Assembly (NCBI GenBank): GCA_024636315.1
Contig: JAGXHJ010000036.1
Span: forward strand, 23,885-87,884
Source: Methylophaga sp.
GTDB taxonomy: Bacteria > Pseudomonadota > Gammaproteobacteria > Nitrosococcales > Methylophagaceae
Length of the DNA stretch: 64,000 nucleotides
Direction of reading: 5' to 3'
This document shows, piece after piece, positions 5,708-35,753 of the stretch; position 1 is the first letter of the stretch, and each line of letters begins with the position of its first letter. The position numbers and the translations under genes are program-made. The notes under the pieces are model-generated. The model did no database searches, was not told the DNA's origin, and saw nothing but the letters and a program-made list of their open reading frames with translations.

Positions 5708-6447
5708 TGAATATGCGTAACATCTGGTTTATTATGAAACGTGAGCTGAGTGGCTATTTTGCTACGCCAGTTGCGTATGTTTTTATTATTATCTTTTTAT
5801 TACTGACTGGTTTTTCAACCTTTTTTGTCGGCAATTTCTTTGAACGTGGCGAAGCAGATTTATATCCATTTTTCTCTGTTCACCCGTGGATTTATATCTT
5901 GTTAATTCCTGCAATCTCGATGCGTTTATGGTCAGAAGAGCGCAAAAATGGCTCGATTGAATTACTGATGACCTTACCTGTATCGGTGTTTGAAGCCGTT
6001 TTAGGTAAGTTTCTTGCGGCATGGGCGTTTACAGGCCTAGCTTTGCTGTTGAATTTTCCATTATGGATTACGGTTAATTATTTGGGGACACCTGACAACG
6101 GTGTCATTTTTGCTGGTTTCTTAGGTAGTTTATTGATGGCGGGTGGTTTCTTAGCTATTGGTGCCTGTATCTCTGCGACAACAAAAAATCAGGTTATAGC
6201 CTTTGTATTAAGTTTGATTGTCAGCTTAATCTTCGTATTGAGTGGTTATGGCATTGTATTGGACTTTTTTAGTGGTTGGGCGCCAACAACGTTGATTCAT
6301 GCGATTAGCTCTTTCAGCTTCTTGACCCATTTTGATGCAATTTCAAAGGGTGTCATTGATATACGAGATATGCTGTATTTCGCTTCCGTCATCATGGTTT
6401 GGCTATTTGCTAATGCCATTGTTGTTAATGCCCGTAAGGCCGATTAG
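5707..6447 (+). CDS. ABC-2 type permease (GldF-like)
   Basis: A 246-residue integral membrane protein with about six hydrophobic helices, beginning 'FATPVAYVFIIIFLLLTGFSTFFVG'. The segment 'IYILLIPAISMRLWSEERKNGSIELLMTLPVSVFEAVLGKFLAAW' is the conserved ABC-2 permease signature (the 'WSEERKNGT-E-L-LLT-P' loop). Translation starts at an ATG overlapping the ATPase stop codon, so the two are translationally coupled. It forms the membrane half of the exporter with the ATPase upstream. The substrate is unknown. Confidence 0.92.
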   Translation: MNMRNIWFIMKRELSGYFATPVAYVFIIIFLLLTGFSTFFVGNFFERGEADLYPFFSVHPWIYILLIPAISMRLWSEERKNGSIELLMTLPVSVFEAVLGKFLAAWAFTGLALLLNFPLWITVNYLGTPDNGVIFAGFLGSLLMAGGFLAIGACISATTKNQVIAFVLSLIVSLIFVLSGYGIVLDFFSGWAPTTLIHAISSFSFLTHFDAISKGVIDIRDMLYFASVIMVWLFANAIVVNARKAD

Positions 6448-6462
6448 GAATTTAAGCTCACT

Positions 6463-8373
6463 ATGAATAAACAACTATTATCGACCCTTGGTCTAGTACT
6501 GGCCATTATCCTATTTTTGTCATTTAACATTGTCACTAACGGCAATTTAAAATCAGCACGTATCGATTTGACTCAAGATAATTTATATACCTTGTCAGAA
6601 GGTACCTTAAATATTATTAAGTCATTAAAAGAGCCGCTGACACTGAGATTTTATTATTCAGATAAAGTCGCACAGGAATTGCCTAGCGTAAAAGCCTATG
6701 CACAGCGTGTTCAAGAATTGTTAGAAGAATACCAGCGTGCAGCAGATGGCATGATCAATTTGATTGTGCTTAATCCTGAACCTTTTTCTGATAATGAACA
6801 ACGTGCTGAAGACTACGGCTTACAGGCAGTGCCTATCGATGGTAAAACTGATCAACTGTATTTCGGTTTGGTCGGCAGTAACTTATTAGATGGCGTCGAA
6901 AACATTTCTTTTTTCCAACCAGAAAAAGAAGATGTACTTGAATATGATTTAACTAAACTCGTTTATAAACTATCTAGTGCCGATAAGAAAACGATCGCTA
7001 TTGTTAGTTCTTTGCCAGTAGATGGCGAAGGATATGACCCTTTAAAAGGTTATGCACCAACAAATGATGGGCCTAAACCTTGGGCGGTAATGGCTGAATT
7101 ACGCCAGATGTTTAATGTGTCAGTGTTGCCTATAGATATCAAACGAATTCCATCTAGCATTGATGTGTTAATGGTTATTCATCCGAAAGAATTAGAAGAT
7201 GGTATTTTATATGCTATCGATCAGTATGTTTTGGGTGGCGGTAAATTGATTACGTTTGTTGATCCTTATGCTGAAATAGATATTCCAGAAAAAGATCCTG
7301 ATAATCCGATGAATGCGATGTTGGCGTCACACAGTTCAAACATGCCTTTGTTATTCAATGCTTGGGGGTTTGAACGTTCACCTACTGATGTCGTAGCTGA
7401 TCGTAAAACAGCGATAAAAGTTGATTTTGGTGCTAGAACTAATAATCAACCGATTGATTATGTATTGTGGCAGTCTATTCCATCAGAACAGATGAATGCA
7501 GAACAAGCGATTACCAATCATCTGAAAAAAGTTGAAATGGCCACTGCTGGCCGCTTCCAAACTATCGAAGGTGCTACAACGCAGTTTATTCCACTTATCT
7601 CGTCTAGTAATGAAGCGATGATGGTTGATAAACGGGTAGTACAGTTCCGTAATGATCCGATGGCTCTATTAACTAAGTATCAAGCAGGAACCTTAAGTTA
7701 TCCTATTGCTGTTCGCGTTACTGGCGCTGTTAAATCAGCGTTTCCTAATGGTTTAAAAAATGAGGCTGGAATTGCTGAAAAACCATCTGGTTACTTGAGT
7801 GAATCTAAACAGGACATCGATGTTATCGCGATTGCCGACGTGGACATGCTACAAGACCGGTTCTGGGTGCAATTACAAGATTTTTACGGAAAAGAGATTG
7901 CTTACAGTACGTCTAATAATATTGATTTTTTAATCAATGCTATTGATGAATTAACAGATAGTCATGGTTTGATTAGTGTTCGCTCTCGTGTTGGTTTCTC
8001 TCGACCATTTGAACGCGTTTTAGATTTACAGCGTGAGGCAGAAAAAAACTACCGTACTAAAGAACGTGAGTTACAAAAAATATTAACAGAAACTGAGCAA
8101 CACATCGCTAGAATGCAAGTTGAACGTAGTGGTAGTGGTGAAGAACTTCTGAATGATGACCAGAAGCAAGAAATTGCAGATCTACGAATGATGAAGAATA
8201 AAACCCAACAACAATTACGTGAAGTACAGGGAAAATTGCGTCAGGATATTGATAAGCTTGATACGCAGCTTAAATTCTTCAATATTGGTCTGGTACCTAT
8301 ACTGGTCGCATTTTTGGCCGTGCTCACAGGCTGGATGCGTGTTCGTAAACGTACTAAAGGTCGTCATCAATAG
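6463..8373 (+). CDS. GldG-family ABC-type uncharacterised transport auxiliary protein
   Basis: A 636-residue protein with an N-terminal membrane anchor ('LLSTLGLVLAIILFLSFNIV') and a large extracytoplasmic domain. The early segment 'ARIDLTQDNLYTLSEGTLNIIKSLKEPLTLRFYYS' is typical of the GldG/COG3225 family. Around residues 535-605 there is a charged coiled coil ('EKNYRTKERELQKILTETEQH'), followed by a C-terminal transmembrane helix ('IGLVPILVAFLAVLTGWM') and a basic tail. It sits 15 bp after the permease and presumably works with it outside the membrane. Family membership is clear; the biochemical role is not known. Confidence 0.88.
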   Translation: MNKQLLSTLGLVLAIILFLSFNIVTNGNLKSARIDLTQDNLYTLSEGTLNIIKSLKEPLTLRFYYSDKVAQELPSVKAYAQRVQELLEEYQRAADGMINLIVLNPEPFSDNEQRAEDYGLQAVPIDGKTDQLYFGLVGSNLLDGVENISFFQPEKEDVLEYDLTKLVYKLSSADKKTIAIVSSLPVDGEGYDPLKGYAPTNDGPKPWAVMAELRQMFNVSVLPIDIKRIPSSIDVLMVIHPKELEDGILYAIDQYVLGGGKLITFVDPYAEIDIPEKDPDNPMNAMLASHSSNMPLLFNAWGFERSPTDVVADRKTAIKVDFGARTNNQPIDYVLWQSIPSEQMNAEQAITNHLKKVEMATAGRFQTIEGATTQFIPLISSSNEAMMVDKRVVQFRNDPMALLTKYQAGTLSYPIAVRVTGAVKSAFPNGLKNEAGIAEKPSGYLSESKQDIDVIAIADVDMLQDRFWVQLQDFYGKEIAYSTSNNIDFLINAIDELTDSHGLISVRSRVGFSRPFERVLDLQREAEKNYRTKERELQKILTETEQHIARMQVERSGSGEELLNDDQKQEIADLRMMKNKTQQQLREVQGKLRQDIDKLDTQLKFFNIGLVPILVAFLAVLTGWMRVRKRTKGRHQ

Positions 8374-23038: not shown

Positions 23039-23902
23039 ATGAGTACAGAAGGGAATACCTTATCTAGCCAAGCGCAATTACTGGCTGAACCCTTAGAACA
23101 TTTAATTAATCGTGGTGGTGTAGAAGTACCTATGTTGCCTGAAGTGGCCAATAAGGCACTTTTATTGGCACAAAATTCAGATTCAGATGCTAGTGAAATG
23201 GCCTAACTCATTCAAAGTGATCAATCATTAGCCGGTCATGTTATGCGGATTGCTAATTCAGCAGCTTATACACCGATGTCTAATTTAGTCTCATTACAAC
23301 AAGCCATTGCACGCCTTGGAATGGGTGTTATTAGTGAAATTGCATTAACAGCGGCTATCGGTGCCAAGATGTTTAATACACCTGGCTATGAAACACATAT
23401 TGCTAGTGTCTGGCGTCATGCTTTGGCAACATCACTATGGGCAAAAGAAGTGGCACGACATTGTCGAAGTAATGTCGAGGTGGCTTTTCTAGCTGGTCTA
23501 CTTCATTCCATAGGCCGACCTGCTATATTGCAGACAATTATTGAATTGGCTAAAAAAGAGCAAGTAGTTCTAACTGCAGAAGATATCCATCAACTGGAAA
23601 ATACATATTGTCATCGACTTAGTGTGGCGGTTGTTAATTTATGGAAAATGCCGACGTTAGTGGTTGAAGCGGTCAGTTCTTATACTGATTACAATAACGC
23701 TTTAACGACAAGTGCACAGACCGCACAGCTTACTGTTGGTGCTAGATTTGCCACTCATATGTTGACGCCAGAAAAATTAGATAAAGAAACCTTATTTGTA
23801 CTACCCGCCCTTACGACATTGAATCTCTATCAGGATGAGGTGGAAAGTTTATTAAAACAGACGGATACCATTAAAACCCGTTTAGAGGGGTTATCATCAT
23901 GA
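23039..23902 (+). pseudogene. HDOD-domain protein interrupted by an in-frame stop codon
   Basis: Two ORFs in the track (23021-23206 and 23243-23902) are one gene in the same frame, split by a TAA at 23204. Reading through gives '..SDASEMA*LIQSDQSLAGHVMRIANSAAYTPMSNLVSLQQAIARLG', a continuous HDOD signature (compare 'LIQxDQSLAGHVLRxANSA' in intact relatives). A C-to-T change of CAA to TAA explains it most simply. The ribosome-binding site and ATG at 23039 and the reading frame downstream are otherwise intact to the stop that overlaps sthA (ATGA). Either the gene has recently been inactivated, this is a sequence error, or a shorter product starts at the ATG at 23243. Confidence 0.75.
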
Positions 23903-34672: not shown

Positions 34673-34697
34673 GGAGTGAAGTCTTCAGATTTTCCTA

Positions 34698-34815
34698 GAT
34701 CAATGACTTACAGAGTTACTCACAGTATCTGTGGATAACTCTGTGGTTAACTTATGGGGAAATCGCTAAGTCTTTAATCTGTAACAATCTATAGTATATG
34801 GTTAAAAATCAACCA
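34698..34815. repeat. Direct repeat copy A with paired DnaA-box-like sites
   Basis: About 118 bp that recurs ~800 bp downstream with roughly 80-85% identity by eye. It begins GATCAATGACTTACAGA and ends at GGTTAAAAATCAACC. It contains TGTGGATAA at 34730-34738 (a perfect reverse complement of the DnaA box TTATCCACA) and a near match, TGTGGTTAA, at 34742-34750. The left part, CAGAGTTACTCACAG-TAT-CTGTGGATAACTCTG, is a 15-bp inverted repeat with two mismatches. An AT-rich palindrome, TATAAAA-T-TTTTATA, follows at 34846-34860. Confidence 0.8.
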
Positions 34816-35010
34816 TTAAGTTAAAGTTCAACATAAACAGATGGTTATAAAATTTTTATAGACGTTACAAACGGTATAAGATGAGTTAAGACTTGTTCCT
34901 ACTTTAAAACTCTAAAGTGTATAACTTACTTAGATGTCAAGCATTAAGTCGCAATTCTAGTGATATTTATATTAATGCTGACAAGTATATTGATGGTGCA
35001 GATTTTATCT

Positions 35011-35330
35011 CTCGCCGCACTACATGGAACGATGCGATAGCGAGTAAGTAGTGCAAGCCGCTAGTAGGAGTTGGTGATTACAGCAGCTTTCGTAGCGTAG
35101 CGAAGAATAGTGCAGTAATTACATCCTCACTCCGTCGGTCGCTTGATAGCCTAAGCGTTAGCGAGGTGACGAGGACGTCTGGTGCAAATTGGTCGTCGCC
35201 GAACGGAGTTGAATTAAACCATGGATGGGTTAATTCTCTCACGAGTACGGTGACATGCTGGAAATGACCATTCTAAGCTTGGGTATGATTCAATGACCTG
35301 ACTTAGTCAGCTGGTCGCCGATTATTTTTT
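35011..35330 (+). ncRNA. Candidate structured RNA in the 1.08-kb gap
   Basis: This segment is GC-richer than its surroundings, has no ORF of meaningful size and is full of nested inverted repeats. GCACTAC (35017-35023) pairs with GTAGTGC (35048-35054); CTCGC/GCGAG interleaves with it as a possible pseudoknot. GTGATTACAGCA (35074-35085) pairs with TGCAGTAATTAC. ACTCCGTCGG (35129-35138) pairs with CCGAACGGAGT (35199-35209), enclosing GACG-AGGA-CGTC and TCGCT/AGCGA. GAATTAAACC-ATGGAT-GGGTTAATTC is at 35211-35236. CGGTGAC/GTCGCCG closes the last domain and is followed by ATTATTTTTT, terminator-like on the plus strand. At least two loops present GGA. No known RNA family was recognised. Transcription is inferred. 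Confidence 0.4.
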
Positions 35331-35493
35331 GCTACTAACGATAGTAATAAATGTAAGTGAACAATCCTTTGTTAGCTGTCTTTATTCCATCTCAATGATC
35401 GTTGACCAATATATTGATTTTAGCTAGATTTTACCTAGACTATTATGAGAAGAATAGCCACTAGATAGTGGCTAATTGAGTCGTAAATTTCAT

Positions 35494-35612
35494 GATCAAT
35501 GACTTACAGACTTACTCACAATATCTGTGGATAACTCTGTGGGTAACATGCCGACAAATCGCTAAGTCATTATTTTGTAACAATCTACCTCAGTTTGGTT
35601 AAAAATCAACCA
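35494..35612. repeat. Direct repeat copy B with paired DnaA-box-like sites
   Basis: The second copy of the 118-bp repeat, with TGTGGATAA at 35526-35534 and TGTGGGTAA at 35538-35546, in the same 12-bp spacing as copy A. It keeps GATCAATGACTTACAGA, CAAATCGCTAAGTC, TGTAACAATCTA and GGTTAAAAATCAACC. The two copies flank the structured segment. The motif CAATGACTTA occurs again near 35665. The rest of the gap up to ttcA holds nothing I can name. Confidence 0.8.
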
Positions 35613-35753
35613 CTATAATAATATTGATAAAAATCAATAAGATAGCGTGCAGCCTAATAGTTTCAATGACTTAGCGACGACTCTTGTGACAGTTATGCGA
35701 TAGTGAGCCTTACTGGTGCATAACTCTCTTATTGGGTTAACAGATTATGGTGA

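Follow-up and report, generated by a model that had tools for sequence, protein, structure and literature searches.

A folded intergenic segment of Methylophaga sp. as a copy of a small non-autonomous mobile element

A gene-free gap in the genome of Methylophaga sp. raises the question of whether a folded intergenic segment represents a non-coding RNA gene or another kind of sequence. The segment lies in a window of 64,000 nucleotides, i.e., the whole stretch of DNA analysed here (positions 23,885 to 87,884 of contig JAGXHJ010000036.1, assembly GCA_024636315.1), to which all positions without a contig name refer. A sequence-only reading had interpreted the roughly 320 bp at positions 35011-35330 as one structured RNA transcribed from the plus strand and ending near 35330.

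The gene-free gap and its folding energy

As judged from the ORF list, the gap noted around the segment indeed exists: it extends over 1.08 kb without genes (34673-35753), and its neighbours are presumably a small ORF resembling glyoxalases and a ttcA-like gene, names that follow our own reading of the ORFs. The proposed comparison with dinucleotide shuffles also came out in favour of a fold, segment 35011-35330 reaching a z value of -2.12 with 1 of 100 shuffles equally good, though the opposite strand behaves likewise (z -2.32) and the energy therefore decides little and picks no strand. For the 249-bp element described below, taken alone, the corresponding values are -1.48 as RNA and -2.08 as DNA. 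Folding energy alone is thus modest evidence and shows no strand preference. The segment contains no tRNA or tmRNA, a search against Rfam at gathering scores and at E values up to 1 gave no convincing match to any curated covariance model, and a promoter scan found no sigma-70-like promoter upstream of the element.

Some further features of the gap should be recorded. Both of its sides carry a 94-bp direct repeat (87% identical) together with a further matching stretch of 41 bp (34698-34839 and 35494-35636). This repeat contains a perfect DnaA-box-like sequence, TTATCCACA, within an inverted repeat, and part of it is found again in the genome, with a third partial match at G000:C111:4990-5048. 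A replication origin was considered on account of these boxes and rejected, since their number in the window equals the chance expectation and no lasting GC-skew switch occurs there. A terminator-like hairpin on the minus strand, TAGCCACTATCTAGTGGCTA (35455-35474), possibly marks the end of the transcript of the ttcA-like gene.

A dispersed 249-bp element and its empty sites

Searching the host genome with the gap as query yielded 25 matches, nearly all of them to about 35012-35262 and with identities up to 98%, and the draft genome (2.36 Mb) holds roughly 20 full or partial copies of the element. Many copies coincide with contig ends, several of them breaking off after about 141 bases, which is the pattern expected of an assembler that stops at multi-copy sequence. 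The limits of the unit were obtained from the copies, their boundaries and an exact empty site in a relative (G006:C6), which shares the same intergenic region at 83-88% identity and lacks exactly the 249 bp of 35013-35261 (plus strand, CGCCGCACTAC...GACATGCTGG), reading CTCT^AAAT instead. The tetranucleotide CTCT to the left (35009-35012), with its C at position -4 relative to the element, is host DNA present in the empty site, where it adjoins the host flank at 35262-35330 with a palindrome and a T-run. The terminal stem followed by ATTATTTTTT (about 35280-35330), which had been taken as the 3' end of the RNA, is accordingly located outside the element, occurs in the relative without it and is unlisted by the terminator scan. 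The element itself has no ORF and no terminal inverted repeats, its two ends not being inverted repeats of each other.

Two more empty sites were recovered, CTGCCCC^TTTTC for the copy in C93, which sits between a terminator-like stem and its T-run, and CATT^CCCA for a copy in G021, and a target-site duplication is absent from all three clean sites. The right side of the copy in C63 fits a site in G005 (CAGT^GATT), which we take to lie inside an insertion-sequence gene, while its left side is rearranged. As to the target, 20 of the 21 left junctions carry C at -4 (p=2e-13 for a count of 19, copy C59 being placed one base off); a mild preference for T exists at -1 and -5, only the C at -4 being strong, and the same junction survey revealed no comparable base preference close to the right end. 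These data identify 35013-35261 as a copy of an element that is mobile but non-autonomous and inserts cleanly, without target duplication, just after C-N-N-Y.

Shorter copies of 132, 176 and 189-190 bp keep both ends and have lost the middle wholly or in part, some of the deletions lying between short direct repeats. An identical deletion with unrelated flanks is present in two species (G000:C56 and G021:C4), which suggests from the sequences that the short form itself has moved, the alternative being recurrent deletion at the same short repeat. Given the many copies, the exact empty site and the internal-deletion derivatives, the unit is a dispersed mobile repeat, and a single RNA gene of about 320 nt finds no support; the sequence-only reading had itself named a mobile repeat as the finding that would speak against its proposal, and this is what the segment turned out to be.

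Two fragmentary arrangements were seen among the copies. In a composite copy (L040; G000:C4, about 6428-6625), the left half of an element is joined to the right half of a second one in inverted orientation, as would result from insertion of one copy into the other, and a lone 40-bp left end (L050; G021:C30:2483-2522) neighbours what we take to be an insertion-sequence transposase fragment.

Among 58 relatives, matches occur in only three genomes, which represent three other species of the same genus and add a few copies. Covariance models of the two element halves contributed only few decayed relics, in further species of the genus, and the same type of search found the element absent from most of its species. 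The left-half model gave no match in other genera of the family, searches of plasmids, phages and E. coli genomes gave none to the element, and GTDB genomes and viral contigs scanned for patterns yielded, apart from chance matches, only copies already known, in two MAGs of the genus. As far as the searches reach, the family is thus restricted to a single genus of gammaproteobacteria. Two weak model matches, L095 (G005:C15:28985-29047) and L091 (G013:C11:66574-66638), were not counted as copies, since they resemble another hairpin behind a gene. Each is a perfect hairpin with a CAAGGATGG top, much like the apical hairpin of the element, situated directly behind the same gene in two species, and may be a terminator or perhaps a distant relic.

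Consensus fold and covariation

An alignment of 20 rows, some of them incomplete copies, failed to yield a useful consensus fold owing to missing ends, and the consensus was instead derived from nine near-complete copies. It consists of a left-end hairpin GCACTAC...GTAGTGC with an inner hairpin (35017-35054, helices 1 and 2), a middle domain (35057-35185, helices 3-10) whose closing stem encloses hairpin A (35067-35133) and hairpin B (35138-35176), and a right-end domain (35191-35259, helices 11 and 12) formed by a long imperfect hairpin; all are given on the plus strand, and 94.7% of the cells are paired. The compensatory changes asked for by the sequence-only reading are indeed present among the nine copies, in 10 of 77 pairs, six of which belong to helices 3-5 of the middle domain. 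There are 18 two-sided cells compared to 5.0 in shuffles, and none of 500 shuffles scores as high, with the proviso that the shuffle test takes the copies as independent while they are related, so that the counts overstate the independent events. Slid structures score far lower than the consensus.

The strand of the fold may be judged from the departures from pairing. G-T departures outnumber A-C ones by 11 to 2 distinct events when a decayed copy is left out (p=0.02) and by 16 to 7 when it is included (p=0.09); this excess hints at folding of the plus strand, although predicting the structure on that strand itself favours G-T.

The individual helices proposed earlier fared unevenly. The 10-bp hairpin at 35211-35236 is retained as the apical hairpin of the right-end domain, with compensatory changes among the copies, and its AUGGAU loop is conserved in a 16-copy alignment. 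The AGGA hairpin, in contrast, is not conserved: in at least three copies the GACG-AGGA-CGTC stem (35168-35179) is disrupted. Of the two GGA loops that had been likened to CsrA/RsmA-binding RNAs, for which several such hairpins retained among the copies would be expected, one is thus preserved. The proposed closing stem (35129-35138 with 35199-35209) had to be abandoned, as ACTCCGT is changed to GCCCCGT or GGCCCGT in other copies while the 3' partner ACGGAGT stays unchanged. This stem breaks in the second subfamily and conflicts with covarying pairs, its 5' bases forming covarying pairs with GGAGT (about 35067-35071). The fold is real, but its limits and nature had been set wrongly: a nucleic-acid fold of the plus strand under selection is supported by the covariation and more weakly by the G-T excess, and an RNA gene of about 320 nt with a terminator at 35330 is not.

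The covariation and the hint of plus-strand folding would also suit a genuine regulatory RNA, i.e., a plus-strand transcript kept for its RNA function and copied by duplication. A crude ORF survey points the same way, in that the upstream gene is co-oriented in 12 of the 16 copies with a readable upstream gene; no copy lies inside an ORF of at least 80 codons. Insertion tolerance could account for such an intergenic, co-oriented placement, and the unrelated sites with clean empty counterparts, the tolerated deletions of the middle domain, the lack of a promoter-like site upstream and the many species of the genus without the element argue against a regulatory RNA, which we regard as highly improbable.

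Candidate movers and relation to known systems

The best overall explanation, which we hold to be probable, is a non-autonomous mobile element whose folded strand would be transposed in trans by an HUH enzyme. The absence of terminal inverted repeats and of a target duplication, the near-terminal palindromes, the one-sided target and the lack of an ORF, as known for PATEs, point to HUH single-strand transposition, and by this analogy an HUH-type single-strand transposase acting in trans is the somewhat favoured mover. It would recognise the folded plus strand, cleave both ends after C-N-N-N (CNNY^ in the left flank, CTGG^ at the right end) and insert the excised strand into target DNA in single-stranded form, as with IS200/IS605 elements and their PATE derivatives; the fit of both ends to such a cut is suggestive only. 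The covariation of the hairpins would then reflect selection for a folded transposition substrate. Several points stand against this reading. An autonomous partner with the ends of the element was not found via the Y1, Y2 and reverse-transcriptase families, in an assembly that is incomplete and may miss such a copy (a reverse transcriptase gave no match in the host genome and one in G021), and the Y1 (RAYT-like) genes of the genus carry their own flanking repeats and show no sequence match to the element. Moreover, a target rule of one base is less strict than the 4-5-base targets known for IS200/IS605, and the relatedness of the copies inflates the number of independent compensatory changes.

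A Y2 rolling-circle transposase of the IS91 type, acting in trans, would likewise leave no target duplication, a known trait of IS91 elements, and the only Y2 gene among five genomes tested (G000:C2:14634-15119) belongs to the host genome G000, which has by far the most copies. However, copies also exist in G006 and G021, both without a Y2 gene, the Y2 locus shares only short chance matches and no common ends with the element, and IS91 targets are of the GAAC/CAAG type and thus differ from CNNY, making this mover very doubtful. The Y2 gene (locus L165, with flanks) adjoins a tyrosine-recombinase ORF, and nearby sequence resembles the attC sites of a cassette array.

Unlike classical MITEs, with their terminal inverted repeats and usual target duplication, the element shows neither feature. 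It resembles bacterial MITE-like intergenic elements in its size range and intergenic spread, in having strong hairpins and internal-deletion variants, and in being likely transcribed as part of mRNAs; ERIC, NEMIS and RUP are examples listed in PMC3733652. Closer in anatomy are the IS200/IS605-related PATEs of Haloquadratum walsbyi, which have no terminal inverted repeats or target duplications, show near-terminal palindromes, encode no transposase, for which they are too short, and provide core-deletion derivatives and between-strain empty sites (PMC3119063). All of these traits recur in the element, the missing duplication being seen at three empty sites. In contrast, PATE termini resemble those of autonomous, TnpA-encoding IS605-type elements of the same genome, while no Y1 locus with the ends of the element was found in the incomplete assembly; PATEs also follow a well-conserved terminal oligonucleotide rather than a single strongly conserved C at -4, and their host is haloarchaeal and not bacterial (PMC3119063). 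Note that the cut sites of IS200/IS605 elements are selected through pairing with guide sequences beside the hairpins (PMC8266576).

A mobile repeat of the REP/BIME type, moved by a RAYT transposase of the genus, was also weighed. REPs, BIMEs and REPINs are dispersed intergenic palindromes thought to be mobile as single-stranded DNA, as is proposed here, but REPs measure 20-40 bp and are tagged at one end by GTAG or CGTC, while the element has 249 bp and three domains (PMC3733652, PMC8266576); TnpA-REP enzymes cleave at CT or CA (PMC8266576). RAYT genes are found in all three genomes with good copies, and most copies have a GTAG at the base of hairpin A. Nevertheless, such genes also occur in genomes without the element, none is flanked by it or matches it in sequence, and the RAYT gene of G000:C74 is flanked by separate GTAG-type palindromes of 20-25 bp, which renders a RAYT mover unlikely. 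This locus (L080; G000:C74:26446-26778 plus flanks), a 152-aa RAYT-like Y1 gene between arrays of GTAG-tagged palindromes (GTAGGTCGGGTTTCAACCCGAC), is a typical REPtron.

With HUH transposition as the preferred reading, copies that landed between genes would often be transcribed as structured 3'-UTR segments, any effect on the mRNA being secondary and putative. A more far-reaching version, to which we assign a low probability, is that the mobile fold serves both as single-stranded DNA for transposition under an essentially one-base rule (C at -4), moved by an HUH enzyme of unusual specificity, and as a structured 3'-UTR RNA altering transcript ends or stability; if true, the transposon family would spread ready-made 3'-UTR modules.

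Rather than as an "undescribed structured RNA", the segment is more aptly seen as belonging to a new family of mobile elements, small, non-autonomous and PATE-like in anatomy, and thus as a mobile repeat of a known general kind and not as a single new RNA gene. This cautions that a covarying intergenic fold can mean selection on mobile DNA instead of a non-coding RNA gene. What had seemed to be a lone RNA gene is now a family for which natural empty sites, deletion derivatives and covariation are all available, and as such it provides a handy system for asking what a single-strand transposon minimally needs.
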